Shown piece by piece: positions 22,604 through 41,221 of a stretch of 64,000 bases of DNA (position 1 is the stretch's first letter; every line of letters starts with the position of its first letter). Source of the stretch: Vibrio tapetis subsp. tapetis (GTDB taxonomy: Bacteria; Pseudomonadota; Gammaproteobacteria; Enterobacterales; Vibrionaceae); NCBI RefSeq assembly GCF_900233005.1, contig NZ_LT960611.1, positions 3,534,001-3,598,000 of the forward strand. The letters are read 5' to 3'. Below the pieces are notes generated by a model. That model ran no database searches. It was not told the origin of the DNA and saw only the letters and a program-made list of their open reading frames with translations. The position numbers and the translations under genes were made by a program.

Positions 22604-22613
22604 ACAGCTATTA

Positions 22614-22623
22614 CCCTTGTAAA
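22614..22623 (+). repeat. Left island-end inverted repeat
   Basis: CCCTTGTAAA, beginning 10 nt inside the left junction. Its partner at 41203-41212 reads CCCTTTTAAA on the minus strand, 9 of 10 bases identical and 9 nt inside the right junction. The near-symmetrical placement suggests recombinase arm or core sites. Confidence 0.55.
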
Positions 22624-22681
22624 TATAACTTTCACTATCGAGGAATATTCAGGTTTTTGTTTTTTAAGTAGTTTTAGAGGC

Positions 22682-22721
22682 AAAAAAAATGTTACACATA
22701 ATATTTATGCATAACATTTTT
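22682..22721 (-). terminator. Terminator of the island MarC-family gene
   Basis: On the minus strand a 16-bp stem (AAAATGTTATGCATAA with TTATGTGTAACATTTT, two G-T pairs), loop ATA, then T8 ending at 22682. It lies between the marC-type gene and the island's left edge. Confidence 0.8.
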
Positions 22722-22754
22722 GGTTCTGAATCATAAGGTAATATAAAAACTATT

Positions 22755-23357
22755 CTATTGAGCGATAGCCCCGATTTGCTGAAAGTAACTCTCGATACCA
22801 TTTAAAAACATCTGTACCGCAATCATTAGCAACAACATCCCCATAAGCCTTTCTAGGGCTTTAAGAATCTTATCTCCGACGATTCTCTCGATAAGCTCAC
22901 CACCACCTAAAATCAAGGCAGAGGCAAACCAAGCTAAAAAAACGGCTAGAGACCAGTCATACATGCGGCTCGTGTCTTGTTGGGCGAGTAAGATGAGCGT
23001 AGCGATTAAACTTGAACCTGCAAGCAGAGGGGTAGCAAGAGGCACTATAAATGGATCTTCACCTGCAGCTACTATTGGAGAGCTTGAAGATGGGAAAATC
23101 ATTTTTAATGAAACCATCAGTAGTATTAATGCACCACTGATGGAAACAGCTTGAGAACTTAAGTTTAGAAATTTAAGTATTGAATCTCCTGCCCATAAGA
23201 ACGTCATCATGATTGCTAAAGCAATTAATAGCTCTCGGATTAAGATAATTCTACGTTTTTTAGGAGGTATGTGCCTCAAGACAGAACTAAAAATTGGAAG
23301 GTTACCAAACGGGTCCATGATCAGGAACAGCATTGTAGTAGCGGCGATAATATCCAT
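22755..23357 (-). CDS. MarC/YhgN-family membrane protein carried by the island
   Basis: Complete 200-residue MarC-family protein with about six membrane helices; signature start MDIIAATTMLFLIMDPFGNLPIF and GEDPFIVPLATPLLAGSS. It aligns end to end with the interrupted yhgN (same motifs, many substitutions), so it is a diverged homologue and not a recent copy. It is oriented opposite to yhgN, with its own terminator. The likely meaning is that the island supplies a substitute for its insertion target, or that it is a coincidental MarC-type cargo. MarC-family function is not settled (NAAT transporter label). Confidence 0.9.
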   Translation of the reverse strand: MDIIAATTMLFLIMDPFGNLPIFSSVLRHIPPKKRRIILIRELLIALAIMMTFLWAGDSILKFLNLSSQAVSISGALILLMVSLKMIFPSSSSPIVAAGEDPFIVPLATPLLAGSSLIATLILLAQQDTSRMYDWSLAVFLAWFASALILGGGELIERIVGDKILKALERLMGMLLLMIAVQMFLNGIESYFQQIGAIAQ

Positions 23358-23506
23358 GAGGACTCCGTATTGTTGTTAGCTTATAGGGTTTAGCGGGGCG
23401 CTATTCTAGCTTAGCAACAATGACTTATACACAACTCTATGAACTCGAGTTATTCGGAGTAGATGGCGTAGACTAGTTCGGTAGGATACCTAGATATTTT
23501 GAGCTT

Positions 23507-23827
23507 TTATGTGTTTGTTTTTTGAAGGTTAGAAATAAAGTCCATAAGTACCTTTCTTTCCTCGATAGATAGTTTTGATATAGCTATAGCTAGATCTGCT
23601 GAAGTTTCATCTTCACAGAAAAAGTAATTCAAAGGCACACCAAGTTCATCAGCAATTTTTTTTAATGTGCTGACGTCAGGAGTATGTCGGCCTTTCTCAT
23701 ATTGATTCATTCGTGCGCTTGCCGAGCTCTCATCTATACCAATTTTTACTCCTAACGCTTTTTGCGAGAGTTTAGCTTTCTTACGAACATCTTTAAGCCG
23801 CTGCGGTATGGGGTTGTCGATTGACAT
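23507..23827 (-). CDS. XRE-family (Cro/cI-like) repressor
   Basis: 106 residues. The helix-turn-helix covers about 8-62 (RLKDVRKKAKLSQKALGVKIGIDESSASARMNQYEKGRHTPDVSTLKKIADELGVPLNYFF), with a short C-terminal helical tail likely for dimerisation. Divergent from the operon at 23930; between them are two identical-architecture palindromes (see operators). It probably represses both its own gene and the wHTH-helicase operon. Confidence 0.88.
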   Translation of the reverse strand: MSIDNPIPQRLKDVRKKAKLSQKALGVKIGIDESSASARMNQYEKGRHTPDVSTLKKIADELGVPLNYFFCEDETSADLAIAISKLSIEERKVLMDFISNLQKTNT

Positions 23828-23856
23828 TTCACTTTCATAATTTTTTCAACTCATAA

Positions 23857-23871
23857 CTAAGATTTTCTTAG
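23857..23871. promoter_or_regulatory. XRE operator O1
   Basis: CTAAGATTTTCTTAG, arms CTAAG/CTTAG with a 5-nt centre; flanking bases extend the dyad to 8-bp arms (AACTAAGA/TCTTAGTT). It lies just upstream of the repressor start and overlaps the probable -35 region of the rightward operon. Confidence 0.7.
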
Positions 23872-23890
23872 TTTTACTGATTTCTGTATA

Positions 23891-23905
23891 CTAAGCAATA
23901 CTTAG
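23891..23905. promoter_or_regulatory. XRE operator O2
   Basis: CTAAGCAATACTTAG, the same CTAAG-N5-CTTAG design as O1, 34 bp away centre to centre. It overlaps the end of the likely -10 element TATACT (23887-23892) of the rightward promoter. Confidence 0.7.
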
Positions 23906-23929
23906 CTTTTTATGGTGTGCGGTCGATAT

Positions 23930-24460
23930 ATGAAACCTTCTAAAAAAATTAGTGCGGATATGCATAAGCTGTTGATAGAGAAAAGAATGGATGGTTTTTC
24001 AATTGTTGAGGCCAGAGAAGCGTCACTATCTGGGAAAGCTATGCCAAATGAACTAGGTAAATACCACCAACGAATTTATCGTCAAATATGGCAACTTGAA
24101 AAGAAAAACTGGCTCAGAAGTGAAGGGTATGGGAAGAGTAAAAGATACTTCAAGACAGCAGTCTTTGAGAGCTTCCAATTTCATTTGAAGACAAATAATA
24201 AACGCTCTTATGCTGCTGAAAACATAAATTCAAACTACTCAGTTTTAGTGTATGAACGGAATGAAGCTCAAGGAGAACTAGAGGTGGTTTTAGGTGAGAT
24301 CGAAGAATACCGCTCACTCAAGAATCGCTTTCCAGAACTAGAGTCTAGATTAACCCCCTTCCAAGAGGATGCTACAGAGCGATCTGCTCGATTGTTAAGT
24401 AGGGTCAACGTACTAACGAAAGTACTGAAAACACTTACGGAAGGTGCCAAAGAGTGTTAA
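23930..24460 (+). CDS. Unknown helical, wHTH-like protein upstream of the helicase
   Basis: 176 residues from ATG 23930 (ATG 23912 would add six). The N-terminal ~90 residues are basic and look like a winged helix (KYHQRIYRQIWQLEKKNWLRSEGYGKSKRYFKT). The C-terminal part (about 105-175) is a predicted coiled coil (EAQGELEVVLGEIEEYRSLKNRFPELESRL). No family recognised. Its stop overlaps the helicase GTG start by 7 bp, so the two are coupled. It is controlled by the adjacent XRE operators. Confidence 0.7.
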   Translation: MKPSKKISADMHKLLIEKRMDGFSIVEAREASLSGKAMPNELGKYHQRIYRQIWQLEKKNWLRSEGYGKSKRYFKTAVFESFQFHLKTNNKRSYAAENINSNYSVLVYERNEAQGELEVVLGEIEEYRSLKNRFPELESRLTPFQEDATERSARLLSRVNVLTKVLKTLTEGAKEC

Positions 24461-25866
24461 GGCAGTGGCAGATTGAATGTTCAGAAAAAGCTCTACAAAA
24501 ATATCACTCGAATGAAAGACATTTTTTTTGTCAAGCAACTCCGGGAGCTGGAAAAACGGTATTAGCTGCGACTATTGCTTCTAGGCTTATATCCGAAGGT
24601 ATGATCGACCTTGTCTTATGCTTTTCACCATCTTTAACTGTTTCAAATGGTATAAAAAAAACGTTCGCGAAGACTCTGAACTGTTCATTCAACGGGGGAT
24701 TAGGTTCAATTGGAAAATCACTTACATACCAATCCATACAATTTCTAAATGATGAATTTTGGGAGACATTGAGAAATCACCGTGTATTTGTGGTTTTTGA
24801 TGAAATACATCATTGCTCTGGATCTGAGGTTGAAAGTGCAAATGTTTGGGGGCAGCAAGTCCTTACTAATATTCAAGGATTAGCAACATATACATTGGCT
24901 TTATCAGGAACGCCTTGGCGTTCAGATGCTATACCGATCGTTATGAGTGACTATAGCGAGCCTAGTGGAATGGTGTTTGTTGATTATCAATATAGTTTAA
25001 AGCAAGCCGTCATAGATAAAGTATGTAGAACTCCAAAGATAGTGTTGGTTGATAGCGAGTATTTGGCAGTAAGAGATGGTAATGAGAAAGCATCTTTTTC
25101 TTCTATATTAGAAATGCTCAAGAACACTAAGACATCCTATCAAAGTGTAATTCATAACAAAGAAGCGATGTTGTACATACTGGATTTAGCTTGTGAAAAA
25201 CTAAAAGCGATAAGAGTTCAATCTCCAAATGCAGGTGGGTTAGTTGTTGCTTCTTCTGTTGAACATGCTGAACAAATTTTGCATCTTTTATCTCAAGAAT
25301 ATGGTCAAACAGTTTCGATTGTTACGTATCGCCATGAAGAACCAATAACTGAGATTGAGCGATTTCGCCAGAGTACTACTCAGTGGATTGTAAGTGTTGG
25401 GATGATTAGTGAAGGGACTGATATTCCTCGGCTTCAGGTTTGTTGTCATATGAGCTCAATAAAAACTGAGTTGTTTTTTAGGCAGGTGTTAGGGCGTGTC
25501 CTTCGTGTAAATAATTCTCTGAATCAAGAAGCATGGCTTTTTACGTTCGCTGAGCAGAGTTTTATCGATTTTGCTGAACGAATTGAACAGGACATCCCTG
25601 ACGTGTGTGCTTTTTCCAAAATGGCTCCCTTTTTAGAAAGTGCGTATTTCGGAGCATTGCGATCACCTATTTCGGCATTATCCGATCACCTGTTTCGGTT
25701 TAAACCGATCGCTCATTCCGCAATAATCCGATCACTTTAGCCCAAACTCCGAAATGGGCGATCGGAATAGCGAAATCACTGATCGGATACTCCGAAACCC
25801 TCCCTTTTTCTCTTTTAAATCAACCAGTCGCTATCCTTGTTAGTAGTCGTATACAACTAGGAAGTG

Positions 25867-27401
25867 ATGATGCCAAAAAAGAGAACACCAATGACAAAAA
25901 TCAAAGAGGTTTACGCCTTAAATTCGAGTGCGGATTGTCACACAGAAATATCGCTTCCTGTCTGAAAATTGGTTGTGCGACCGTATCTGAAATCATCAGT
26001 CGTTTTAATCAAAGCCAAATAGGTTGGCCGCTCCCTGATAGTTGTTCAGATACAGAGTTAACCAATGCGCTTTATCACCCAAAAGGAGCGAATAAAGCCA
26101 AAGCGATGCCAAACTTCGCTAACTGTTGTACGGAACTAAAAAGAAAAGGCATGACGAAACTGCTGTTGTGGGAAGAATATTACGAGCAATATCAGGAGCG
26201 AGCCTACGCTTATACTCAGTTCTGTGAACATTACATGCGTTGGTTAAAGAAGCAGAAGCGTAGCATGCGACAGACCCACATCGCAGGTGACAAGCTGTTC
26301 ATTGATTACTGTGGCCCAACGATCCCAGTCGTTAACCCTGACACGGGAGAGATCCGTCATGCCCAGGTTTTTGTTGCCACTCTTGGTGCATCCAATTATA
26401 CCTACGTGGAAGCAAGTGAGAGTCAAAAACTAGAACACTGGCTGGAAGCCCATGCCAATGCCTTCGAACACTTCGGCGGGGTTCCAAGGTTGTTAGTCCC
26501 TGATAACCTGCGTTCGGCTGTCACTAAACATGACCGCTATGAACCTCAGCTCAACGATAGTTACCAGAAACTATCTAACCATTACCAGACGGCTGTCATG
26601 CCTGCTCGACCATACAAACCTAAAGACAAAGCAAAAGCTGAAAATGCAGTGCTCATTGTTGAGCGTTGGATAATGATGCGACTACGACACAATACCTTCC
26701 ACACGTTCAAAGAGTTAAACCTAGCCATCCGTGAGCTAATGAATGATTTGAACCAAAGGGAAATGAAACAGCTAGGAGCCAGCCGTCAGGCACTGTTCGA
26801 GCAGTTAGATAAACCAGCATTGAGACCACTTCCAATCCAACGCTACATCTATACCGAAACTAAGCGGGCGAAAGTTGGGCCTGACTACCACATAGAGTAC
26901 AGAAAACATTACTACTCTGTGCCTCACCAGTTAGTGGGACAACATGTTGAACTTGAAGCCACTTCCCGCTTGATACGCATTTATTATCAAGGAAACCTAG
27001 TCTCACAACATCCATGTAGCCCAAAAGAACGAGGGATAAGCACTTACCCCGAACACATGCCCAGCAACCATCGGTATCAGAAATGGTCTCCTGAACGATT
27101 ATTGCGCTGGGGAGAACATATTGGCGCTGCAACTCGTGAAATGGTGAATGTTCAATTGATGAAAAAGGCACACCCTGAACAAGCTTATCGTAGCTGTCTT
27201 GGCTTATTGAACCTGAGTAAAAAATACGGTGATGTTCGTCTAGAGCAAGCCTGTAAGGATGCGCTTCTAATCAATAAACCCTATCTTAAGTTCGTCAAAA
27301 ACTTGTTAGTAAACCATCGGGAAGGCCAACTCTCATCAGAAACTCAAACCACACCCAACATAGAGCACAGCAATGTTCGTGGCCCTGACTTTTACCACTA
27401 G
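25867..27401 (+). pseudogene. istA: IS21-family transposase IstA with N-terminal frameshift
   Basis: The normal start appears to be ATG 25867 or 25870 (MPKKRTPMTKIKEV), but the frame is lost at a TTT run (25910-25912): adding one T would continue as LRLKFECGLSHRNIASCLKIG, the usual HTH of IstA. The main frame is open from TTG 25935 (488 residues). The DDE core is present: D in FIDYCG, D in VPDNLRS, E in KAKAENAV. Either a disabled gene, a shorter protein from the internal TTG, or frameshift expression. Confidence 0.85.
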
Positions 27402-27410
27402 GAGTACGTA

Positions 27411-28151
27411 ATGAACCAGATAAATGAACAACTAAAAGCACTTCGCCTTGGTCATGCAGCACAAGCTTTAGAGCAGCAACGTGAGCAGCTATCCACTTAC
27501 GCAGAGCTAGCGTTCGAAGAAAGGTTAAGCTTACTTCTAGAGAGTGAGTTGCTTAACCGAAACCAAACTAAGATCCAAAGGCTCAAGCGACAAGCCAAGC
27601 TCAGAGTAGATGCGCAGGCAAGCCAAATTATTTACAAAGAAGGGCGAGGTCTAATGCGGAGTCAGATGAGTGAACTTCTGACAGGAATCTATCTGCACAA
27701 ACATCAAAATATCTTGATCACTGGCCCTACAGGAGCAGGAAAAACCTATATCGCTTGCGCTTTATCGGCTCAGGCTTGCGAGCAGCAACATAGCGTTCGA
27801 TATTACCGTTTGAGTCGCTTACTGGATGATCTAAGTTCAGGCCGTCTTGACGGCACATATCAAAAACAGCTACTGGCACTATCGAAAAAAGGCTTACTCG
27901 TCCTAGATGACTGGGGAATGGAAAAGCTCACTCAGGATCATGCAGGTCATTTACTGGAGTTACTTGAAGACAGATATCAGGTCAGCAGCACGATGATGAT
28001 AAGCCAACTTCCTGTAAAAGAATGGTACAACATGATAGGTAACGCCACGGTTGCTGATGCTGTTTTAGACCGATTAATCCATAACAGCCACCGATTAGAA
28101 CTAGGAGGGGAATCAATGAGAAAACTGGCGCAATCCGATCAGTTAGAGTAA
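27411..28151 (+). CDS. istB: IS21-family helper ATPase IstB
   Basis: 246-residue DnaA/DnaC-like AAA+ ATPase that assists IstA in target selection. Walker A GPTGAGKTYIA (about residues 101-108), Walker B LLVLDDWGM, and a C-terminal DRLIHNSHRLELGGESMRK segment. It starts 9 bp after istA with AGGAG upstream. Intact. Confidence 0.95.
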   Translation: MNQINEQLKALRLGHAAQALEQQREQLSTYAELAFEERLSLLLESELLNRNQTKIQRLKRQAKLRVDAQASQIIYKEGRGLMRSQMSELLTGIYLHKHQNILITGPTGAGKTYIACALSAQACEQQHSVRYYRLSRLLDDLSSGRLDGTYQKQLLALSKKGLLVLDDWGMEKLTQDHAGHLLELLEDRYQVSSTMMISQLPVKEWYNMIGNATVADAVLDRLIHNSHRLELGGESMRKLAQSDQLE

Positions 28152-28518
28152 AACTAGAGGTAGAGAAAAACGGCAGGGTCAGGTGATCGGATTAAACCGA
28201 AACGCCCGATCGGAATCGCCGAAATACGCAAGAAAGGAGGAGGGAAGAGCTAATTAACTATTTAAAGAGTGGAGACGACGTCAAAAGCGATGACAATCTA
28301 AGTTTAACTTTTTCTGAAAAGACTGTGTTGAGTTGTAATGAGCGTAGAACTGGTAGCTCTTCTACTACGATAAAAAACCTTGAGTTAGATAGGTTTAAGC
28401 AGAGAGTTATTTCTGCTTTTACCTTATTAGGTGAAAAAGCAGAAATTTAATTGTTCATGTCTTTTATATGCGGCCCTAACTTTTATGTTGGATATGTTTT
28501 ATTTGTCTTAAAAAGTGG

Positions 28519-28547
28519 TAAACAATTTATCTTTAGGCGAGTATAAT
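28519..28547 (+). promoter_or_regulatory. Probable sigma-70 promoter of the ATPase-protease operon
   Basis: TATAAT at 28542-28547 with TAAACA 17 bp upstream as a weak -35. About 50 bp before the ATPase start. It lies downstream of the helicase stop, so the operon has its own promoter. Confidence 0.55.
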
Positions 28548-28596
28548 CGGCCGGTATTTTATTGTATTTATTAAAAATCAAGCGCTTAGGTCAATT

Positions 28597-29685
28597 ATGA
28601 ATGGTAAACTCATATTAAAAATCGTTGAGTCGGCGTTAGCTGGGCGCTCTGATGAGTTAAAAATGTTAGTAAATGTCCTGAGTCACGAGGTTAGTCGAAC
28701 TAATCCAGATTTGAGTCGGGAATTAAGTAAGCTTGTCTTGTCGAAGGGCAGTTTAAGAAGTAAAGCACAAAGGGTTAACCCTAATTTACTGGAGCCTAAA
28801 AAATCAGGCCTGATAGAAAACAGCTTAGTGAACATAAACCCTTTCCCATACTTAGAAAGTGCGCCGGTTTTGCCGGACTCAATCAAAGATACTTTTGAAC
28901 AAGTTATTGTTGAACATAACAATAAAGCTAAGTTACAAAAAAATGGATTGGAACCAGTAAAGACCCTTTTATTTGAGGGGCCGCCAGGCGTAGGGAAAAC
29001 TATGTCTGCTCAATGGCTAGCTCAAAAATTAGATGTACCATTACTCGTTTTAGATTTGGCAACCGTAATGAATAGCCAATTAGGTAAAACAGGTAACAAC
29101 CTAAAGTCCGTAATAGAGCATGCAGCCTCTCAGTCATGTATTTTGTTGTTAGATGAGTTTGATGCGATTGCTAAGAAGCGTGATGACGAAGGGGATGTCG
29201 GAGAGCTTAAACGACTAGTTACTGTATTACTGCAATCAATAGATGCTTGGCCTAGCTCATCGATCCTTGTTGCTGCTACAAACCATGCTGAATTGCTTGA
29301 TCCGGCAGTTTGGCGTCGATTTGAAGAGAAATTTGTTTTCTCTCTTCCTAATGATGTGCAGGTTAGTGATTACTTAGAAAGTATTACTGGAAATAAGCAT
29401 GTAGCAGCTCTGTCACTTTTGTTTCGAGGGATGTCATACAGTGATATAAAAACTTTGATACTCAAGTATAAGAAAATTAGTTTAATTCATGATATACCAC
29501 TTGTTGAACAGTTAATAGCTGCGCATGTGTCTAATATTTGTTTAGAAAAACTATCGATTAATGAAAAGAAGCAACTAGCAGTGGCCTTAATCGGTGCGAA
29601 ACTTTCACAACGAAAAGTTTCTGAACTTTTGAATATATCAAGACAAACAATCAAAAAGGCAATCGACAACGTCGAATCTAATTAG
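28597..29685 (+). CDS. ietA: AAA+ ATPase of an IetAS-like pair
   Basis: 362 residues: helical N-terminus, AAA+ core with Walker A GPPGVGKT (128-135), Walker B ILLLDEFDA, sensor AATN (226-229) and arginine finger WRRF (239-242). A C-terminal HTH (LSQRKVSELLNISRQTIKKAI) may bind DNA. Directly followed (13 bp) by a subtilisin-like protease, the arrangement of IetA-IetS, described as a plasmid-stability and later anti-phage system. I use the name for the architecture; similarity to the type IetA should be checked. First gene of a five-gene run. Confidence 0.75.
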   Translation: MNGKLILKIVESALAGRSDELKMLVNVLSHEVSRTNPDLSRELSKLVLSKGSLRSKAQRVNPNLLEPKKSGLIENSLVNINPFPYLESAPVLPDSIKDTFEQVIVEHNNKAKLQKNGLEPVKTLLFEGPPGVGKTMSAQWLAQKLDVPLLVLDLATVMNSQLGKTGNNLKSVIEHAASQSCILLLDEFDAIAKKRDDEGDVGELKRLVTVLLQSIDAWPSSSILVAATNHAELLDPAVWRRFEEKFVFSLPNDVQVSDYLESITGNKHVAALSLLFRGMSYSDIKTLILKYKKISLIHDIPLVEQLIAAHVSNICLEKLSINEKKQLAVALIGAKLSQRKVSELLNISRQTIKKAIDNVESN

Positions 29686-29698
29686 AAGCGAAACTTGA

Positions 29699-31948
29699 AT
29701 GAGTCCCAAAAGACCTATTTTGTCCAAAGCAGAGGCCTACTCACAAGCAGTGGTCAGAAAGAATCCACCTCCAGGTGATAAATTGGTTCCATATACTTAC
29801 TTTCAAGCTAAGGGAAGAATAGGACGACAGCTTACAGAAACAATTTCTAGAATTGATACATTGCCACCGGATACTACTCCGAATGAAGAAGTTGTTACGA
29901 AGTTAACTTTACATCCTAGCTTTTTGGCCAGGTCATTTTTTCCTAAGAGCATTCTGGAAAAATATGAACTGAAATGTGTCGGTAGTAAGGAAGTTTTCAT
30001 TACTCCTGAAATGAAAGCAACAAAAACACAAGAGGAGCAGGGTGTTCTCTCTAGTTCATTATTATATGTTGCTGGCCAAAAAGAACAGTTTAGTAAGTTA
30101 CTTGATGATATTGCTTGTGATGTTCTTGATGACGACTCTTTAGATGATTTAATCAAGTTAGAGGATATTTCACTATTTGAAAGCTTAGAGAAGTTGGCTC
30201 CTTCAACTGAGACAGGACCTTCAACCTCTGAATTAGTGTATGAGATAGTCCTACATGCATCCTCATCTCAAGACTATATTCTTGAGAGCTTTTGTCGATA
30301 CATTGATAACTTAGGTGGGCATGTTTACAAAGATAAAACTAGAACTGTCAAAGGTTTAACTTTTTGTTTTGTTAAAACTTGCGCGAGTAATATAACTCCA
30401 CTCGCTAATTTTGCGTATGTACGAGTTGTAAGGCCGATACCTGAACTGACTATTAGCGAGCAAGGCTCAGATTTTAAAAAAATAGATAGTTTGAGTTTTG
30501 GGACTGAGAAAGATTTAAGCTCTGGTCCACATTCTAATATTGCGATTTTTGATGGGGGGCTTTTTCAAGGCGATTGTAATAACCCTTATATTCGATATTT
30601 TGACCTTACACACCAACATGTTGATATAGAAGATAATTACTTGCATGGTTCTCGTGTTACGTCAGCCATTGTCTATGGTGACGTAGGTGATACCGATTCT
30701 CAATCGCGTAACATTTTATCTGTGGATCATTATAAGGTTTATTGCCACCAAGATAACCTTGATGTCGGTTTAGTTGATGTTCTTGATAGGCTTGTAAACG
30801 TCTTGAAGTCGAGGAAATATAAGTTTGTAAATATTAGCTTGGGACCTAAAGTCCCATGTCCTGATGATGAGCCTAGTTTGTGGACCTCAACACTAGACGA
30901 GCTAGCGGCTACAGGTGAAACACTGTTTGTAGTTGCAGTAGGAAATGAAGGTATATATCTAAATACTGATTTAAAGGGGCTTGCTCGAATCCAACCTCCG
31001 GCCGATATGTTAAATGGATTAAGTATCGGAGCTGCAAACTCAAGAAACAAGAACTGGGAGAGAGCTTCATATAGTTGTGTAGGTCCCGGTCGTCGTCCAG
31101 GTTATATCAAACCTGACGCATTGTTTTTTGGTGGGGAAGAAGACGAAAAAGTTAAGTTACTGTCTTTAAGTGATTATTCTACGAATGAAATCACGGGCAC
31201 TTCTATTGCTGCTCCGCTCGCACTTCGTTTAGCTGCATTGATTGATATGACAACTAATGGCGAGCTAAATGTAGCGACTATTCGAGCTTTGCTTATCCAC
31301 TCAACTGGAAAAAATGACGTTGATAGGAAAGAGTGTGGCTGGGGAAGAATCGAAAGCAACATAGAAAATATACTGTATTGCGATGACAATAAGGTGACTT
31401 TCATCTATCAAGGGGTGTTAACGAAGAGCAGTGGTATTCGAGCTTCAGTACCATGCCCGCAGAATACTCCTTATATCGGTGGAATGATCGAGATGGATGC
31501 GACAGTGTGCTTTTATACCGATATAGATCAGCAGCATACGGTTAGCTATACCAGGGCTGGATTGGAGATCACTTTTAGACCAAATTTTGAAAAGTTAGGA
31601 AAGGATAGCTCTGAAGCGAAAACTAGGTCTCTTTTCAATAAAAAGAATATCTTAGGTGATGAGCCGACTTTTAGGCGCGATGCCCATCTATGGGAGACGT
31701 GTTATAAGGTACATGATAGAATGAGGGCATCTTCGTTGAAAGAACCTATGCTAGATATCAAGTATTTAGCCAGAGACGAAGGGCACTCTCGCTCAGCTGC
31801 GGAGATGCGTAAGCTTCCGCCACTTTACTACTCATTGATCGTTACCGTACAAACTAATACTGAATATGATTTGTACGGTGATGTTGTGAATGAATTTCAA
31901 CTATTAACACCCTTAGAGGTAGATTTAGATGCTATTGTTAACGTATAG
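29699..31948 (+). CDS. ietS: Subtilisin-like (S8) serine protease of an IetAS-like pair
   Basis: 749 residues without a signal peptide, so probably cytoplasmic. N-terminal ~270 residues are of unknown fold; the S8 domain follows with D285 (AIFDGG), H316 (HGSRVTSAI), oxyanion N416 (AVGNEG) and S502 (GTSIAAP); a ~220-residue C-terminal domain ends the protein. All catalytic residues are intact. In IetAS the ATPase is thought to control the protease during phage infection. The next gene begins within about 30 bp. Confidence 0.82.
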   Translation: MSPKRPILSKAEAYSQAVVRKNPPPGDKLVPYTYFQAKGRIGRQLTETISRIDTLPPDTTPNEEVVTKLTLHPSFLARSFFPKSILEKYELKCVGSKEVFITPEMKATKTQEEQGVLSSSLLYVAGQKEQFSKLLDDIACDVLDDDSLDDLIKLEDISLFESLEKLAPSTETGPSTSELVYEIVLHASSSQDYILESFCRYIDNLGGHVYKDKTRTVKGLTFCFVKTCASNITPLANFAYVRVVRPIPELTISEQGSDFKKIDSLSFGTEKDLSSGPHSNIAIFDGGLFQGDCNNPYIRYFDLTHQHVDIEDNYLHGSRVTSAIVYGDVGDTDSQSRNILSVDHYKVYCHQDNLDVGLVDVLDRLVNVLKSRKYKFVNISLGPKVPCPDDEPSLWTSTLDELAATGETLFVVAVGNEGIYLNTDLKGLARIQPPADMLNGLSIGAANSRNKNWERASYSCVGPGRRPGYIKPDALFFGGEEDEKVKLLSLSDYSTNEITGTSIAAPLALRLAALIDMTTNGELNVATIRALLIHSTGKNDVDRKECGWGRIESNIENILYCDDNKVTFIYQGVLTKSSGIRASVPCPQNTPYIGGMIEMDATVCFYTDIDQQHTVSYTRAGLEITFRPNFEKLGKDSSEAKTRSLFNKKNILGDEPTFRRDAHLWETCYKVHDRMRASSLKEPMLDIKYLARDEGHSRSAAEMRKLPPLYYSLIVTVQTNTEYDLYGDVVNEFQLLTPLEVDLDAIVNV

Positions 31949-32335: not shown

Positions 32336-32367
32336 TCCTAATAAAACTATTTAGTTGGCTACCTTAC

Positions 32368-33312
32368 GTGCTTGAGATTCTTAAAAACGTGCTTGAAACT
32401 CTTAAAAAACTATTCACTAATCACATCACAAATGTTGTCGTCATTGTTCATATCGCTGTTGTTTACGGAATTTACAATTACGACCCAACTCTTTACCCAG
32501 ACTTTTTTATAGTTTGGTTTGCCGGCATTATTTTAAGTGCGGTTGAGCTTGGTTCTAGATACAAAGATGAGCCAAGCTCAGTTTTGACAAGCTCTCCAGG
32601 TGTAATGTACTTGGTCATTAATGGACTTATTTGTTGTTTTGGCTTCTTCTTGATCCAGAACTTTAGTTGGCATTTCGAAGTTGATGAAATCCTTCCTCTG
32701 ATGGCTCAGCGTACGATGGATATAATGCAGGCTGCTTTAGGCAGTATGATGATTATGCGAAGCTCATTCATTAAACTAGGTAACGATTCCCAGACTGATC
32801 TTGGCCTAAATATTGTTCTCAAAAAGCTCCTCGCAATGGTAGATCGAGAAGTAGATAGGGTTCGAGCGACCAAAAGAAGCAAAGATGTTACCGCCCTTTT
32901 GAAGGGTACAAGCTATTCTGATACCCGAAACAAAGTAATTACATATTGCCTTGATGTGATGCAGAACATCTCACCAGATGAACGCAGGAAGTTAAAGTTT
33001 GAGTTGAATGCTATTGATGCACAAGATGAGTGTGTAGACCGCACCACAAGGAAATACTCGGCAGGACTACTGATATACAATATTGTCGGGCAAAGTGTCT
33101 TAGAAAGTGCTGTGCGTGATCTGGGGCTATATAGCTCTGTCGAATGTAAAGAGAGTGAACTTTCGGTTGACCCTCAAGAAGAGTTTGAATCTGTCCGAGA
33201 TACTTTTGAGGATATGCTTGATACTCCGTCTCCACCTCCTAATGGCAATTCAAAGTCTGTTGAAGAAGGCTCGGAACCTACTGAAACTCAGGCAGATAAA
33301 GCGATTGAATAA
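32368..33312 (+). CDS. Membrane protein of unknown function in the ATPase-protease operon
   Basis: 314 residues from GTG 32368. An N-terminal amphipathic helix precedes three or four hydrophobic segments (about 20-37, 48-64, 80-95, and a weak one near 115-130). About 180 cytoplasmic residues follow, rich in charged helices, and an acidic Pro/Glu-rich tail (about 270-314) ends it. No family recognised. The stop overlaps the TTG start of the next gene by 8 bp, so the two are coupled. It could be the membrane effector or anchor of the system. Confidence 0.7.
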   Translation: MLEILKNVLETLKKLFTNHITNVVVIVHIAVVYGIYNYDPTLYPDFFIVWFAGIILSAVELGSRYKDEPSSVLTSSPGVMYLVINGLICCFGFFLIQNFSWHFEVDEILPLMAQRTMDIMQAALGSMMIMRSSFIKLGNDSQTDLGLNIVLKKLLAMVDREVDRVRATKRSKDVTALLKGTSYSDTRNKVITYCLDVMQNISPDERRKLKFELNAIDAQDECVDRTTRKYSAGLLIYNIVGQSVLESAVRDLGLYSSVECKESELSVDPQEEFESVRDTFEDMLDTPSPPPNGNSKSVEEGSEPTETQADKAIE

Positions 33313-34312
33313 AATATTTATCACCTATTTAGCAACCTTCTTGCTGTCAGCTCTATCATTTCGCTCTTTTGCTATGGTCGATATAAGAGTTGTTGATGTT
33401 GGCCCAGGTTTATGTGTTCTCGCGACTGATACTGTGAACGATAAGCATGTTCTGTATGATGCTGGACGCTGGACCAATAGTTATTGCTATGACTATGTTG
33501 TAGATAAAGTCGAAAGAGATATATCTCTAGTTGTGATTAGTCACTTGGATTCGGATCACTTTAGTAACTTGCCAGATATATTAGAACAAAAGAAAGCTGA
33601 ACTTATTGTTCATACTGGATATAAACGAAGAAAGACAACTTGGCATGCTGCAAACCATGCAATCGCTATGGGAGCGAAGAGGGGCTCTACGGTTATTAAC
33701 TTGCAATCTACCTCATTAGATATGATGGTATCTCCAATAGTCATTGGTGATATGACTATCGATTTTGTGTACGGGCTAGGTGAGTGGGATGTGAACAAAG
33801 GACGACTTTCAGAAAGTCATTTACGTAATGCTCTAAGTATTGTCGTTAGGTTGTCTGCTCATGGTAAAGAAGTTCTTTTGGCTGGAGATACAGTCGGTAG
33901 ACATGATGGAGACCCTCAAGATTCATGTTTGTATGCTGAACAAGATATGGTTACAGCTGTTACACGTGACAAATTAGAGGCTGATGTTCTTATTGCTCCT
34001 CACCATGGTGCAGATAATGCGAGCTCAAGTTGTTTTCTGGAAGCAGTGAGCCCTACATATGTGATTTATTCTGCTGGTCATAGCTATAAGCACCCCAGAG
34101 AGGTAACTGCTAGAAGAACATTAACAACTCTTGGAATTCCTCAGACTAATATGTTTAGAACAGACAGAGGCGATGATGAGGGAGACTTAGAATGGGATTT
34201 TCAAAGGATTCCTGGCTGCTCAGACCAAGCTGGTGATGACGATGTTGCCATAGAGCTCTCGGCTACAAGTTTACACGTTTCTTATGTAAATCCTCTTAAT
34301 GAATGTGGATAA
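33305..34312 (+). CDS. Exported metallo-beta-lactamase-fold protein (ComEC C-domain-like)
   Basis: 335 residues from TTG 33305, chosen because it opens a classical signal peptide (MNKIFITYLATFLLSALSFRSFA) and overlaps the previous stop by 8 bp. Reading further upstream runs through the membrane gene in another frame. MBL motifs: VVISHLDSDH (H80, D82, D84, H85), LLAGDT, and APHHGADNASSS with a metal-binding histidine, the pattern of the ComEC/Rec2 MBL domain. Likely a periplasmic hydrolase, possibly nuclease-like. Last gene of the five-gene run. Confidence 0.78.
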   Translation: MNKIFITYLATFLLSALSFRSFAMVDIRVVDVGPGLCVLATDTVNDKHVLYDAGRWTNSYCYDYVVDKVERDISLVVISHLDSDHFSNLPDILEQKKAELIVHTGYKRRKTTWHAANHAIAMGAKRGSTVINLQSTSLDMMVSPIVIGDMTIDFVYGLGEWDVNKGRLSESHLRNALSIVVRLSAHGKEVLLAGDTVGRHDGDPQDSCLYAEQDMVTAVTRDKLEADVLIAPHHGADNASSSCFLEAVSPTYVIYSAGHSYKHPREVTARRTLTTLGIPQTNMFRTDRGDDEGDLEWDFQRIPGCSDQAGDDDVAIELSATSLHVSYVNPLNECG

Positions 34313-34386
34313 TCTGGCAGTAAATGGTCAACTTGAGGCATGTTGTAGCATCATGGGGTTGTCGTATTTCATAAGATAACCAAGCC

Positions 34387-35049
34387 CTAGTTCTCTTCAC
34401 TGTTGTTTAATTTGAGTGTTTTTTCGATAGCACTAAAAAAGCCCGGCTTAAAGATTACAAAATCGTTCATGTCTAAAATTTCACCAAATTCGCCAGTTTT
34501 GAGACCTTTCATATCAAGGTATTTAGGGTCTATTGATGATTTTAAGGCGTTAGCTTCTGAACTAGTAAGTGTAATGGTATTTGATAATTGATTAAGCTCA
34601 CTGTGAAGGGGGGCGGTATCAAATACTTGAACCGGTACTTCAGCATTCAATAAGTCCACTTTTAACTGATTCACTTCCGCAATCAATTTACTCTTGTCAG
34701 CTATCAAATCTCGCACAAGCCACCTTGCAGATGGACTCTCAATATCATTGACCCAACTATGCTCATTTAGACGAGAGTTGAACGTTGGTTCTTTCTTGAA
34801 TGTTTCTGCGTATGTTTTTATTAAGCTATGGTATAGATGCCCTGATTTGTTGCGAATAGCCTGTGTTGAAGGGCCTAAACTCTTTGCTGAAAGCTCCCCA
34901 ATATTGATGATGGAAAAGTTCTTTTGTCCGGTTTGTAATTGTTCTAAACAAACCTGGTTAATGATCTTTAGGCTTTGCTTAGCTTTCTTTGATTTTGCTT
35001 CTTTCAATAATGTCTCATATACCTTCTTAATATCGTTCAAATGGTTCAT
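34387..35049 (-). CDS. gmtX: Gamma-mobile-trio protein GmtX
   Basis: 220 residues, mostly helical, with a central coiled-coil-like stretch (LIADKSKLIAEVNQLKVDLLNAEV). Third member of the GMT module: its ATG follows the gmtZ TAA with no spacer. Tn554-type and related transposons also carry a small third protein (TnpC) after two tyrosine recombinases, and the KSLGPSTQAIRNKSGHLYHSLI region resembles such helper proteins. The name rests mainly on the gene trio and size. Confidence 0.65.
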   Translation of the reverse strand: MNHLNDIKKVYETLLKEAKSKKAKQSLKIINQVCLEQLQTGQKNFSIINIGELSAKSLGPSTQAIRNKSGHLYHSLIKTYAETFKKEPTFNSRLNEHSWVNDIESPSARWLVRDLIADKSKLIAEVNQLKVDLLNAEVPVQVFDTAPLHSELNQLSNTITLTSSEANALKSSIDPKYLDMKGLKTGEFGEILDMNDFVIFKPGFFSAIEKTLKLNNSEEN

Positions 35050-37486
35050 TTACTCTTCCTCCAATAGTTTAGTCTTTGCAAGAATCATCTGAATCTCCTC
35101 AGATAAAGGCACTAATTTGTCACTTTCTTGTAGGGATATTGAGTCTATGGGTCTCTTACCATCAAGCACATGATTGAGTTCTCCCCAACCTCCTAATCGA
35201 GCAAGCATTAGCTGAGTCATTTGGTTGCCAACCTTTAGCTGATTGTCTTCGCTTAAATGGATAAATTGTGCAGGGAATCCATTACGCAATAACATCTTGT
35301 CTAAACTGGAACTTCTACGAGGGAGTGCTGTATTTGAGTCTGCAGATAAGAATATTTCAGCGTTCTCACAGACTTCCGCTAGTGCTTGATGATGTGATAC
35401 TTCTTCCAGGTTGATTGATAAACTGTTGGTGTTTAGAACTAGGGGAACTTTGCTCTTTGATTGCTCTTCCTTATCAAACAAAGTTAACGTTTGTCTTAAG
35501 AGTTTGAATATCGATAAAATATCGCAGCCCAATGCATCGTGGCGTACTTGCTCCTGTTCTAGTAAGTTGCTTAAACGTTTGTGCTTGAGTCTAACTTCAG
35601 GGGAAACAACTTGTCCTTTTGATTCTAGTTTGTAGATCATCACATCCATATGCTCAATTTTTGAATTGAGACTGCACACTTTATTTGAGACGTATTGTCT
35701 TGCTTCAGCGATTTCATTTCCTTTTGCTAGCAGCCCGATGTAAAAAGGGATACCTGTAACAAAATGCCTACACCTGAAGCAGTTCTGTTTACCTAAATAG
35801 CCAGCTGAAACTGCGGAGTATGCGGGGGTACTTTTTGAGGAAGAGGAAACATCTCTATCACCGCCGTTCGAACATTCAGTTGCTCCATATGGACAAAGGC
35901 CATAATCAAAAAATAGGACTGATGATTGTGGCCAATCGGGGTTCTTTAGAGCGGAGTTAACAGGAATTACAAGCTCTTCTTTGTGTTCGTGAATTTTGTT
36001 TTCCATCATCAATGCTTGTTTATGTTCTGCCGAACGCTCTAGAGCTTTTTTCTCTCCAATCGTGAGTACACTTGCCATATTGGAATGTGTCATTTTTGTA
36101 TAGTGCAATGTCATCATGATTTGAGAGTGACCAACTACTTTCATTAGAATATGTAAGGGGACATCACCATAAAGAACTAGCGATGTAATAAGACTTACGC
36201 GCATCGTATGAGGGCTATATATCGATGTATATTGAGAACCCCTTTTTCTAGCTAAAGGAGTTTTATCATCCTGAATTTCATAAAGAACTTTAGCAAGTGA
36301 GTTGGCGAATATGTTCTGTTTTAACGGCTGGTAGTTGTTTGTGTCAGTGTTTCTATTCCCAGCCCCTGGATTTCGAAATAAGAAGCATTGTGTCCCGCGG
36401 TTTGTGAGCACTGCATTCGATGGCTTTATATGTTTATCAAAATGTACGTCAGTCCAACGGGTTGGTTCTTTGATAGGGTTGTACTTCGTTTGCCAATCTC
36501 TTAATCGGATAAGCCATGGCACAAGTCTTTCTGGGATATATGGAGAGTAGTATGGCTTACCTGTTTTGTTTGTGTTGACGAACATAACGAAGTTATCTCC
36601 ATCTTTATGTAATACACCTTGATTGTCTGTTTTTTGAAGCCCTACAAGAGGGTTATCGTTTTTGACCCATTTAAAGTCAGGCACAATATGAGATTTATCA
36701 TCTAATTCTATAGACTTGTAGCCGTTACAAATTAGTTTGAATTTATCTGCCTCACCTGAATCTAACCAAAGGATTTGCTGCCCTCTTGTAGGCAGGTTAA
36801 ATAAGCAATACAACGCAATAGCCCTTGCTGGAGACCACATTTCAAATATAGTTTCTCGGTAGCACCTACTCCCCTTATTTCTTTTTAGCTTAACTGCTTT
36901 TCGCCATACACAATTGGGGTCGTTTTTATCTATCAGGGCTTCATCGACTTCATACCAATCTGATTTGTTTAACTCATGAGCTACTGTTAGTTGATTAAAA
37001 TTTTCACAACGTATTTTTCCTGAGTTGTTGTAACGATCTATAAATTCGGGAATGAGGTGATTACGTCCTTTTACAACGTATTCATATGGCAAGGATGGTT
37101 TATGTGTTTCACTTTGATTGACTTTGTTGTTTTCAATAACGTGGTTGATATAGGGTATTTGGTATAAGCCTATTTTGGGTATTGGTTTTCTTTTACCTGT
37201 CGCTTTATCTTCTACAAAAAAAAGTATCGCTATAAACTGATTTTAGAAATCCTGCTATCTGATTTTTTGTAGAGTTGCGTTGTAGGCTTTCGGGTAATGT
37301 TGATAAATACTTATCCATTGATGGAGGCGGGTTTTTACGCTCAAAGAATGGAGAAATGTTATTTGAAGCATTGATATTATGAATATGAGAGGAGCAGTAC
37401 TTTAGGTAGTGGTTTAGTCGCAACTTAGTGGCTCCAACACTTCTTCTAAGTTTCATACAGTAGTTGCTAGCAAGTGCTGCCCATCC

Positions 37487-38791
37487 GAGACTGTCTCAAT
37501 TTCTGTGTAATTGCCTAAACTAAGCCTTAAAGGCTAAGGATAGGCAATATGAACAAGAAAGAGCTTGAAGCTTTCGCCAAGGAAGCAGCAAAAGGAATTA
37601 AAACCCCTGAGGACTTAACTGAGTTCAGCCAAATGCTGAAAAAAATTACGGTTGAGGCCGCACTCAATGCGGAAATGGATGAGCATCTTGGCTATGAAAA
37701 ACACCAACCCTCTAGATCGAATAATAGCCGCAATGGAAAGAGTAGCAAACGCGTAAAAACCGAAGATGGCGAGTTTGAACTCGATACACCTCGGGATCGC
37801 CTTGGCTCGTTTGACCCCAAGCTAGTCAAAAAACACCAATCACGATTTACCTCTATGGATGACAAAATCTTGTGGCTCTACGCCCAAGGAATGAGTACGC
37901 GCGACATCGTAAACGCTTTCGATGAGTGGTACGGTGCGGAGATATCACCCAGCCTCGTATCGCGCGTCACAAATGCGGTGATAGAAGAAATAGTGGAGTG
38001 GCAATCAAGGCCACTCGATGCCATTTATCCTATCGTTTATCTCGATTGTATTGTGGTCAAGATCCGTCAAGACAAGCGTATCATCAATAAGTCGATTTTC
38101 CTTGCTTTAGGTATTAACACCGATGGTCAGAAAGAGCTAATGGGCATGTGGATAGCCGAAAACGAGGGGGCTAAGTTTTGGCTGAGTGTTCTAACTGAAC
38201 TCAATCAACGTGGTGTTGAAGATATCCTTATTGCGTGTGTAGATGGATTGAAGGGCTTTCCTGACGCTATCAATACTGTCTTCCCCCAAACGCATATTCA
38301 GCTTTGTATCGTCCATATGGTGCGGAACTCATTGAAGTATGTGTCTTGGAAAGACTATAAGGCGGTGACTGCCGACCTGAAACGAGTGTATCGCTCTACT
38401 ACAGAAGATGAGGCTCTACTCGAACTGGAGCGCTTTGGCGAAGTCTGGGATGGGCAATATCCGCAAATATCTAAGTCCTGGCGCAATCACTGGCAGAACC
38501 TCAACACGCTCTTCAACTACCCAGAAGATATCCGTAGAGCCATCTACACAACCAATGCTATTGAGTCTCTCAATAGCGTGATCCGTAAAGCACTAAAAAA
38601 GCGGAAGATCTTCCCTAACGATGAGGCCGCAACCAAAATGGTGTACTTAGCAATCAAAGACGCCAGCAAGAAATGGACGATGCCCATTCAAAACTGGCGT
38701 CAGGCTATGAGTCGGTTTATTATCGAGTTCGAGGAACGTCTCGATAAACACGTTAACTAAATGGCAGTTACACAGAATCTGTTACAGCCTC
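37487..38791 (+). mobile_element. IS256-family insertion sequence inside gmtZ
   Basis: 1,305 bp with imperfect ~29-bp terminal inverted repeats, starting GAGACTGT on the left and GAGGCTGT on the right and sharing TTCTGTGTAA. It is bounded by an 8-bp target duplication GCCCATCC at 37479-37486 and 38792-38799. The single transposase gene is intact. Precise removal re-joins gmtZ as EMEGWA-ALASNYC. Confidence 0.93.
37549..38760 (+). CDS. IS256-family transposase
   Basis: 403-residue transposase of the Mutator/IS256 family, the usual length. DDE residues are in VYLDCIVVKI (first D), IACVDGLKGFPDAI (second D) and TTNAIESLNSVIRKALKKRK (E); the FPQTHIQLCIVHMVRNSLKYV block is characteristic. No frameshift or truncation, so the element may be active. 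It is on the strand opposite to gmtZ. Confidence 0.95.
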   Translation: MNKKELEAFAKEAAKGIKTPEDLTEFSQMLKKITVEAALNAEMDEHLGYEKHQPSRSNNSRNGKSSKRVKTEDGEFELDTPRDRLGSFDPKLVKKHQSRFTSMDDKILWLYAQGMSTRDIVNAFDEWYGAEISPSLVSRVTNAVIEEIVEWQSRPLDAIYPIVYLDCIVVKIRQDKRIINKSIFLALGINTDGQKELMGMWIAENEGAKFWLSVLTELNQRGVEDILIACVDGLKGFPDAINTVFPQTHIQLCIVHMVRNSLKYVSWKDYKAVTADLKRVYRSTTEDEALLELERFGEVWDGQYPQISKSWRNHWQNLNTLFNYPEDIRRAIYTTNAIESLNSVIRKALKKRKIFPNDEAATKMVYLAIKDASKKWTMPIQNWRQAMSRFIIEFEERLDKHVN

Positions 38792-39679
38792 GCCCATCCT
38801 TCCATTTCCAGATCTATCAGATTCTGAAAATCATGAGCTTTCCACAATATATCGTTAGCATTCTTATACTGGTCAATCTGTGTTGGGTTGACTTTTAATC
38901 TAGGGTGGTTGCGTGCATGGCTTTTGTACTCTCCGAGATTACGAATTCTTTTCAGGGCACAATACTGCCTAGTTTCTGCTAGTGAAAAGTAGTGCAGTTT
39001 TAGAAGTTCAGCATAAGACTTATGGCCATAGAAATTAACAGGCCGTTTAGGTAACTGATTGTTATATTTTGCCTTTTCTAAATAGCTTTTGAGTGTCCAT
39101 AATTCGTGCTCATAACAATAATCAATAAGCTCTGCTTTCGAGAGAGCTTGGGGGATAGGCTGAGCTAAAAAGGTGCTCCAACCCGGGAAGTCTGAATAAT
39201 GTTTATCTGGATTAGATGGAAGTTTTGGGTCTTGCTTATAGTGTTCAATATAACGAGATTTTGTTAAAGGATACTTCTTTAGAAGGTATAAAGCTGCTTT
39301 AGATGCCTCTTGCCAAGATTGATAAAAACGTTGCCATAAGAATGCTTGCCAATGAGGTAGGTTATATTGAAGTTCAGGATCTTTGGGGAGTTTTGTGTCT
39401 AACTGGTAGATGGCTAAGTATGCTGATTTAGTTGGCTTTGCCTTGCCTATTAGGTTTCTAAAACTCTCAAGTGTTTCTTTTGCTGTTGGATAACTTTTAT
39501 CTGTGCCTAAGAATGTCAGCCATGTATTGAAATCAGTGTAATAGGTCTCGGGACTCGAAGGTAATTTAGGGTCATTTTTGTAATGTTGCCTATAGCTCGA
39601 GGCCGACCGTTTATGAATAGACAGGTTATCTAAGAGCTTGATAGCAGCAATGGACGCCTCTTCTATAGTTTTGTATTTG

Positions 39680-41083
39680 TTATTCATTTTGAGCCTGCAT
39701 TTTATTTTCTGCTTTGAGCATCCTTTCTTTGATTGAATCGTGAGAGAGTTCTCCATAATCATTCTGAGAGTTAATGTTTTTATGATGCATCATTGATCTT
39801 ATGTACATAGGTTCTAAGCCTAATTCATTTAGTTCTTGTTTATACAAGTGCCGCAGTCCGTGAGGTGTAGTCCCTTCGCTTTTAGAGCTTATTAACCCAA
39901 CTCTCTCAACGGCTCTCTTTTGACCATCTAGGAGAGCTTTGTAAGAAAGGGGTTGTCCATCTCTTAGGTTCGAAAAAGCGAAAGGATGACTCTGATTTTT
40001 TGGTGCTTGAAACTTTAAGTATAATTGCCAATAAATTAGGAAAAGTTCTGCCGCATGAGAGTTATTGAAGTATGCAATCATATAGAACTTTCTGGGGATT
40101 AAGACTGGATTCTTCCATCCGGTGTACAACCTTTTAGGGCTGTTCTTGTTGCTCCTGGGAAGCATACTATATTCAGTTTTTAAGAATTCATCTCTGCGGG
40201 CATATGGTTTGTTGTATGCCTTACGCCATTCATTTGGAGCAATCCCTTTCTCAGGATGGTGTACTTTTATAAGTGGTATTTTTTTATCTAGATGAATCTT
40301 CGTTTGAGAGGGGTCAAGAGAGATGTCTGATATATATAGGTTGGGCACTTCTGATATCCTCAATCCACAAAAGCGCATTAGTAAAAACGCTAAGACTTTA
40401 GCTAAATCTAAGCGTTTATATAAAGGTTCGTTTGCTTTAGCCCCCCGAATAACAAAACCTTTTTCTACTACGTCCCAAGTTCTTTCTTTTGGGAACGTAT
40501 ATGTCATTTGAAATGTTTGAGGCTCTCTATGCTTTGAGATGAAAGGTGTACGTTTTGCGTCTTTATATGCTTGAGAATCGTCATGGGTATGCTTTAGAAA
40601 AGAGTTGTTCTTTCGATGATGGTAAGCCGCCAAGTTGAGCATTTCTTCATATGGAGTGGCTTTGACCATTGGATTCAACAAGGCATTTTCTCCTCCTGTT
40701 TTTTCCAATAAGAACTCAGAGTATGTGGATATGTATCTGACTAGCTTGTTAGTCTGTTTGGCTGTGCGAGGTTGCCATCTCAAGTCTGTGTGGTCTTCAC
40801 CTGTTTCTTGAACTGTTCCGGAGAATAGTGCATTTGAAAAAGCTTCGAACATAAGTCTTGGAGATTGGAATACCCCTCGGGTAGCCTGCCAATAATCAAG
40901 AAGTAGACATAATGCTTGTGCATTTTCACGATGCCAGCTTTTCCCTTTGTTTTTCCTTGCCAACTGGTAGAGCAAAAATGATTCAAGTATAAATCCATTA
41001 ATACTAATCACTCTTAGTTTAATCACTTGGAACCCACTTTGTGCTACGTATCTATCTCTACAGACAATTGTATATTTACCCAT
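39680..41083 (-). CDS. gmtY: Gamma-mobile-trio recombinase GmtY (tyrosine recombinase)
   Basis: 467 residues from ATG 41083 (MGKYTIVCRDRYV), preferred over an opening at 41191 whose first 36 residues look non-coding. Tyrosine-recombinase catalytic residues: R in CGLRISEVP, H-x-x-R in HGLRHLYK, H in MMHHKNIN and Tyr in NDYGEL. It is the gene nearest the island's right end, reading inward, and its stop overlaps gmtZ by 8 bp. Intact. With gmtZ it should form the integration/excision machinery. Confidence 0.78.
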   Translation of the reverse strand: MGKYTIVCRDRYVAQSGFQVIKLRVISINGFILESFLLYQLARKNKGKSWHRENAQALCLLLDYWQATRGVFQSPRLMFEAFSNALFSGTVQETGEDHTDLRWQPRTAKQTNKLVRYISTYSEFLLEKTGGENALLNPMVKATPYEEMLNLAAYHHRKNNSFLKHTHDDSQAYKDAKRTPFISKHREPQTFQMTYTFPKERTWDVVEKGFVIRGAKANEPLYKRLDLAKVLAFLLMRFCGLRISEVPNLYISDISLDPSQTKIHLDKKIPLIKVHHPEKGIAPNEWRKAYNKPYARRDEFLKTEYSMLPRSNKNSPKRLYTGWKNPVLIPRKFYMIAYFNNSHAAELFLIYWQLYLKFQAPKNQSHPFAFSNLRDGQPLSYKALLDGQKRAVERVGLISSKSEGTTPHGLRHLYKQELNELGLEPMYIRSMMHHKNINSQNDYGELSHDSIKERMLKAENKMQAQNE

Positions 41084-41202
41084 TGGTACACTCGCAATTG
41101 TTATAAATATGATCATCCATAGGGGTAGTATAGGTATGTATTGCTTACTTTGTGAACGATGTTGATGTGTTTGTGGGTAGAGTAATCGCATAAATAGTAC
41201 AT

Positions 41203-41212
41203 TTTAAAAGGG
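41203..41212 (-). repeat. Right island-end inverted repeat
   Basis: CCCTTTTAAA on the minus strand, 9 nt inside the right junction; partner of 22614-22623 with one mismatch. Confidence 0.55.
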
Positions 41213-41221
41213 GTATCTTTC

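Follow-up and report, generated by a model that had tools for sequence, protein, structure and literature searches.

A gamma-mobile-trio island inside yhgN of Vibrio tapetis carries an intact homologue of the gene that it interrupts

Specific integration sites have been divided, in a review of integrative and mobilizable elements, into those at the end of a gene, whose product is kept, and those inside a gene, which is thereby disrupted (PMC5704250). Two single elements carry a homologue of the gene that they target. SE-6283, one of the strand-biased circularizing integrative elements (SE), cuts bcp and carries a bcp homologue, which its authors note as if complementing the disrupted gene (PMC9345347); Tn552-II carries a gene resembling its target gene, suggested by its authors as a possible rescue (PMC12486829). 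Here we describe a gamma-mobile-trio (GMT) island of 18,618 bp which splits yhgN in Vibrio tapetis subsp. tapetis and which carries a second, intact YhgN gene. The analysed stretch, called the window, comprises 64,000 nucleotides (GCF_900233005.1, contig NZ_LT960611.1, forward strand positions 3,534,001 to 3,598,000); coordinates are those of the window.

Several published systems resemble this locus. GMT islands (PMC12715929, PMC12039261) share with the window GmtY and GmtX proteins scoring above the family cut-offs, and defence cargo; the GmtZ match of the window stays below its cut-off, and the window differs by its broken gmtZ and by carrying a spare gene that matches the target. The SE elements, especially SE-6283 in bcp (PMC9345347, PMC10214605), have a fixed in-gene site, a carried homologue of that gene, terminal inverted repeats and, opposite the integrase end, a footprint of 6 bp. 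The window island works like an SE but is not filed as one: the SE core consists of the four genes intA-tfp-intB-srap and that of GMT of a trio, and the two are likened here in behaviour rather than by protein comparison. The Tn554/Tn552-II group (PMC12486829) also has a set of recombination genes (tnpABC) and carries bases of the donor attachment (att) site to one end; it differs in being staphylococcal, in its 7-bp att and in its plasmid or yolD-like target. GInts (PMC5385486) likewise have several tyrosine recombinases at one end, and their authors consider complete inactivation of the target gene improbable; however, they have four gin genes, occupy intergenic, 3'-end or 5'-end sites, and rely on an outward promoter rather than on a spare gene.

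We consider it very probable that the window island is explained by a GMT lineage which combines a fixed site within a gene with a carried replacement. The recombinases of this lineage would insert at one fixed place within a chosen protein-coding gene, and the lineage would as a rule carry a full-length, diverged homologue of the target as a replacement, here the YhgN encoded at 22755-23357 for yhgN. As a homologue of the cut gene travels with the island, an in-gene insertion is more readily understood as part of a lineage-wide strategy. In another genome, G435, a related island occupies the same yhgN codon, with a GmtY 64% identical to that of the window; G435 is a draft assembly in which the island is known from two contig ends alone. 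The ends of the window island, the two parts of the host gene and the carried gene are as follows.

22361..22603, + strand: 5' part of host yhgN, codons 1-81 of the joined frame (uninterrupted in 39 of 60 relatives)
22604..22609, no strand: putative 6-bp footprint ACAGCT at the end away from gmtY (differs from ACCAAA in G435 and from the target core ATTGCA; TTACCC follows one base on in both islands)
22610..22633, no strand: left terminal element sequence with the inverted-repeat motif TTACCC (compared by eye with GGGGTA of the right end and with G435)
22755..23357, - strand: intact carried YhgN, 200 amino acids, the proposed replacement (NF008010 YhgN, 229.3 bits against a cut-off of 215; PF01914)
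41198..41221, no strand: right terminal element sequence, adjoining the gmtY start (last 12 bases GGGGTATCTTTC common to G435)
41222..41569, + strand: 3' part of host yhgN, starting with the target core ATTGCA

The original prediction, made from the letters of the window, had placed an 18.6-kb island in yhgN, and the distance between the two yhgN parts agrees with this. Joining 22603 to 41222 gives a single YhgN frame of 591 bp and, as had been claimed, 196 residues. The insertion after codon 81 of yhgN is real. In 39 of 60 relatives, the match to the joined gene runs through the join unbroken, and the remaining 21 gave no match to it at E<=1e-3; the uninterrupted site speaks for insertion, and the empty yhgN that had been expected in relatives is thus present. 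An alignment through the yhgN site with 87 rows (some genomes are represented twice, and some are common to the set of 60) has a gap at the site, of 4 bases, solely in two rows from genome G513 (contig C3, loci L168 and L181). There, yhgN is out of frame exactly at the GMT insertion site (cut at about position 1154 of the reversed locus) and retains TTTC of the island right end, and its 3' part codes for the same protein sequence as that of G435. This frame break is likely to be the scar of a lost island.

That the island interrupts a coding gene and not a tRNA gene, as had also been predicted, holds as well: yhgN is split, and a search for tRNA and other non-coding RNA genes at the island ends gave no Rfam match at gathering scores between 20000 and 43500. 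Islands in tRNA or tmRNA genes (Islander, PMC4383910) resemble the window island in having a tyrosine recombinase and in that gene function is kept after insertion. They restore the gene end from an attP fragment, whereas the window island cuts in mid-gene and carries a separate whole gene; the tRNA or tmRNA gene that marks the end of such islands was not found here.

The intact carried YhgN, which the earlier sequence reading did not mention, lies between the left end of the island and the cargo and shares 54% amino acid identity with the host YhgN. In a tree of 37 YhgN sequences (bootstrap not quite settled), it groups with two database proteins, P0062 (Vibrio sp. WXL103) and P0063 (support 100/100), apart from the Vibrio host genes among which the split yhgN of the window falls. 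This position, together with the intact frame and the reversed orientation, argues against the view that the spare arose at the present site from the resident gene, by duplication or by capture, as imprecise excision might bring about. Among plasmid sequences, seven records with YhgN relatives were found, all below 60% identity.

Other GMT islands were surveyed for their targets by searching for GmtY in the genus (227 genomes, 30 matched at E<=1e-20), in the class (369 genomes, 4 matched including that of the window) and in the order (394 genomes, 17 matched at E<=1e-60, three of them already known). The surroundings of 52 GMT loci were examined, after one fragment row (G007:C1:1258717) had been dropped because it represents the same place as another row. 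A split gene is present in 20 loci and 31 have no recognised split gene; the remaining one (G375) stayed uncalled, as its 3.2-kb contig has GreB behind GmtX and lacks the target side. The call of "no split gene" is based on self-comparison of the open reading frames (ORFs) and on reading the ORFs upstream of gmtY, several of these loci being on short contigs (G486, G697, G657, G801, G705). The split genes are greB in 16 loci (ten in the genus and six elsewhere), yhgN in two and a DUF1244 gene in two, so that the proposed search for the same target in other islands returned G435 at the same yhgN codon and two further target genes.

A homologue matching the target is carried by 16 of the 18 splitting islands that can be evaluated: all 14 for greB, one of two for yhgN and one of two for DUF1244 (G781 and G897 were left out because their contigs end before gmtX). 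It might be argued that the island acquired the second YhgN by chance, as ordinary cargo, and that its match to the target is a coincidence. Only one yhgN island with a spare has been seen, G435 having none, and the greB islands whose length was measured span 12-41 kb and hold many genes. Yet the same match recurs with greB and DUF1244, the identity of the spare changes with the target, and self-comparison detected no pair of split and intact gene in the 31 loci without a recognised split gene. We thus regard chance cargo as quite unlikely. In five of these 31 loci, the neighbour of gmtY was checked by model; it is recA, nfo, rplS, folE or guaC, and gmtY starts shortly after its intact 3' end.

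The greB islands allow the carried gene to be studied in a larger set. The C-terminal part of the host greB starts at codon 48 in 15 of 16 cases; in G754, the alignment continues from codon 36 and the cut was placed by analogy. Both greB halves were found in 12 of the 16, the N-terminal half not showing in the other four regions fetched. A conserved neighbour gene, presumably Tex-like, which had no NCBIfam hit at 1e-50, lies outside the greB halves in 10 of 16 islands; among intact greB loci with short flanks, 12 of 28 have it alongside. Since it accompanies both split and intact greB, the split gene is at its native locus there.

Thirteen of the 14 carried GreB genes are intact. That of G448 is cut by an insertion (25273-28311 of the oriented region, with gmtY forward), so spares can decay. 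Every one of the 14 spares is nearer in DNA to the spare of another island than to its own host half, in G928 only slightly (72.6 vs 71.4%). This is difficult to reconcile with capture from the resident gene, even though spare and host genes are homologous and some pairs are very similar in protein (94% identity in G448, 93% in G542, 91% in G003). Together with the placement of the carried YhgN, it largely refutes that explanation, to which we give hardly any credence. In a tree of 50 GreB C-terminal parts, which is based on a short alignment and whose bootstrap has not settled, the spares require 5 label changes vs 10.2 in shuffles, none of 500 shuffles being as low, and the host halves scatter. 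Nine of the 14 spares were used for substitution counts. They differ at 543, 281 and 2679 sites in codon positions 1, 2 and 3; this excess at third positions indicates purifying selection. Among the 12 pairs listed, the synonymous rate dS is defined in eight, with the nonsynonymous rate dN at 0.005-0.058 and dS at 0.606-2.961.

In all 14 islands, the GreB spare starts 3-22 bp after the ORF in the gmtX position, an ORF which a model check identified as GmtX in the DUF1244 island and in two of these 14. A place directly behind this ORF would suit a carried gene that serves recombination itself, as would be the case if GreB acted on transcription of the gmt operon. The carried family, however, changes with the target (GreB, DUF1244, YhgN), and no shared function connecting the three with recombination is known to us; such a role is very improbable. 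A further thought is that the carried copy guards against re-insertion, by replacing the sensitive gene and leaving no target for a second island. Of 24 bases around the cut, 9 do differ between the carried YhgN and the host site, but this is in line with the general divergence of the carried gene, and the 11 carried greB copies listed keep GARAAYGCNGAYTAY around the cut, so that the idea of a greB spare recoded there for self-protection is not supported. We hold this protective role to be unlikely, if somewhat less so than the other alternatives.

At the gmtY end, the host core abuts the element directly: it is ATTGCA in yhgN, TAYCAR in 9 of 16 greB islands and TAY followed by other bases in the rest. 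At the opposite end, six variable nucleotides precede the TTACCC repeat in both yhgN islands, and six precede NTAG in 10 of the 12 greB islands with both ends (G004a has seven nucleotides, and G172 has AAAG). The predicted ends, 22604 and 41221, agree with this arrangement, except that 22604-22609 looks like such a 6-bp footprint and not like conserved element sequence. Among 14 islands, the footprint bases equal the host core only in G172; as they differ in the other 13, the last donor site was probably not in the same gene. Integration may proceed via a circle of the SE/Tn554 kind that carries about 6 bp of the donor site. If circularisation regenerates no empty site, as reported for SEs, the cut gene would not be repaired when the element moves and the spare would be of lasting value. 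The spare would restore the lost function of the cut gene; we infer this rescue, including complementation, from sequence comparison.

Several observations weigh against this interpretation. The 54% amino acid identity leaves equal function of carried and host YhgN unproven. The carried YhgN is located at the far end of the island and not behind gmtX as in the greB islands, and its dS was undefined in all three comparisons, so that selection is not measurable, with third positions differing most. The draft assembly of G435 contains no intact YhgN beside the split yhgN, and G513 has only the frame-broken yhgN; these hosts therefore live without yhgN. A further island, in G523, splits DUF1244 and is degenerate, and no spare was detected within 38 kb. 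Given G435 and G523, a spare is not obligatory. In two of the 31 loci without a recognised split gene, G455 and G893, an ORF upstream of gmtY is distantly homologous to a downstream one, at about 26-29% identity; these pairs were not counted because the upstream ORF did not look split. Finally, the alignments behind the trees are short or divergent, and the bootstraps of two trees are unsettled.

The original prediction had assigned the element to the GMT class on the basis of two tyrosine recombinase genes and a small third gene in overlapping order at the right end.

34387..35049, - strand: gmtX, intact (NF040692, 172.6 bits against a cut-off of 40)
35050..37092, - strand: C-terminal piece of the broken gmtZ (NF047926, profile positions 140-782, 530.6 bits against a cut-off of 600)
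37205..37456, - strand: middle piece of gmtZ, out of frame with the C-terminal piece (counterpart within a 1425-amino-acid ORF of G435)
37487..38791, + strand: IS256 family insertion sequence (IS) inside gmtZ (NF033543 over cut-off; terminal repeats; 8-bp duplication GCCCATCC)
38782..39762, - strand: N-terminal piece of gmtZ with integrase repeat units (PF14882; fused to GmtZ in G435); the ORF as listed extends slightly into the IS
39680..41191, - strand: gmtY, tyrosine recombinase, intact (NF040693, 390.6 bits against a cut-off of 340)

The suggested profile search of the trio gave GmtY and GmtX above their NCBIfam cut-offs and a GmtZ match below it, and recombinases matching another class of element were not seen. 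The assignment to the GMT class is supported by the GmtY and GmtX matches and by the IetAS-like pair in the cargo, and the yhgN target by the uninterrupted yhgN of relatives. What did not hold is the picture of three intact overlapping genes, since gmtZ is broken, by the IS256 element and, as a second lesion, by a frame break near 37.2 kb. In G435, the integrase repeats and GmtZ form one ORF of 1425 amino acids. The repeat-bearing ORF of the window was therefore rejected as a fourth gene and is the N-terminus of gmtZ. The unbroken GmtZ of G435 also remains under the cut-off, with 562.8 bits, so the low score in the window is at least partly due to divergence. With gmtZ broken, the island copy is probably not self-mobile now, and would probably need help in trans, if it is mobile at all.

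A tree of 37 GmtY rows, with some long branches and with G523 and the order-level loci not included, unites the 11 greB rows in one group (100/99) and places the window and G435 with GmtYs from V. parahaemolyticus and V. anguillarum (100/100). The 14 rows from gene-splitting islands are separated from the 19 others by a branch with support 86/86. Target gene and recombinase thus go together. It was observed in passing that P0002 (a GmtY) and P0065 (a YhgN of the carried type) both come from records named Vibrio parahaemolyticus and may share one yhgN island; they were not counted. Beyond the genomes surveyed, GmtY relatives occur in 143 plasmid records, all below 60% identity. Among phages, three records matched, at 24-27% identity; a scan of viral contigs with GmtY confirmed no relative.

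An inverted YhgN of the carried type occupies the yhgN slot in G497 (L162), G482 (L161) and G560 (L050). It was considered as an island remnant and rejected, as the loci of about 3.6 kb contain no convincing remnant of a host yhgN. This reversed YhgN between conserved neighbours is more likely a native variant of the lineage, an old displacement also being possible, and was not used as evidence.

Carried homologues of a target gene are thus known for SE-6283 and Tn552-II, and the apparently new part is the target-matched pattern across GMT islands. No account of such spares was present among the literature matches listed, from a search which did not cover the founding description of GMT (Mahata et al. 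2024, 10.1038/s41564-024-01840-5), and neither "greB" nor "yhgN" occurs in the searched text of those GMT-mentioning papers that were queried for both words. Beside sites at gene ends and internal sites, a mid-gene cut with a whole homologue would be a third way, of which no fewer than two single elements have already been noted as examples. Should it be systematic in GMT, defence islands could occupy conserved genes, greB for instance, make the host pay for losing them, and spread foreign versions of core genes. A split gene with a diverged intact homologue would also be a simple genomic signature for element ends and new targets. A wider generalisation seems to us evenly balanced between true and false: target specificity and matching spare would travel and switch together as one module in copy-out tyrosine-recombinase elements, GMT islands would deal with the cost of insertion in two ways according to lineage, one branch landing behind gene 3' ends and the other cutting and replacing a conserved gene, SE-6283 (bcp) and Tn552-II would be additional examples, and island-borne versions would repeatedly displace housekeeping genes of the host, greB among them.

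The remaining genes of the island, for the most part cargo, are listed here.

23507..23827, - strand: helix-turn-helix (HTH) repressor-like gene, upstream of the carried yhgN on the same strand (HTH_3)
23912..25740, + strand: unknown protein and RadD/ResIII-like helicase (RadD match under the curated NCBIfam cut-off)
25935..28151, + strand: IS21 family istA/istB within the cargo (NF033546 and NF038214 over cut-off; flanking inverted repeats)
28597..29685, + strand: IetA-like AAA ATPase of an anti-phage pair (PADLOC IetA, E=3e-79; NCBIfam 222.7 bits against a cut-off of 510)
29699..31948, + strand: IetS-like S8 protease of the same pair (PADLOC IetS, E=2.2e-43; NCBIfam 110.4 bits against a cut-off of 900)
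31952-32335 and 32368-33312, + strand: two ORFs with no matched family
33107-34312, + strand: metallo-beta-lactamase-fold protein (PF00753)

Defence and toxin genes had been expected here. No toxin was recognised among the scanned ORFs; the defence part is represented by the adjacent IetA and IetS matches from PADLOC, the arrangement by which IetAS is called, and as both score below the curated NCBIfam cut-offs, the pair is a divergent relative of IetAS. Homologues of the HTH gene, with 68-76% amino acid identity, are present in seven loci of other GMT regions. The IS21 element (25656-28216) lies directly behind the RadD-like helicase ORF, which it may truncate. The metallo-beta-lactamase-fold protein overlaps the preceding ORF and is weakly similar to ComEC and to metallo-beta-lactamase proteins of defence systems.

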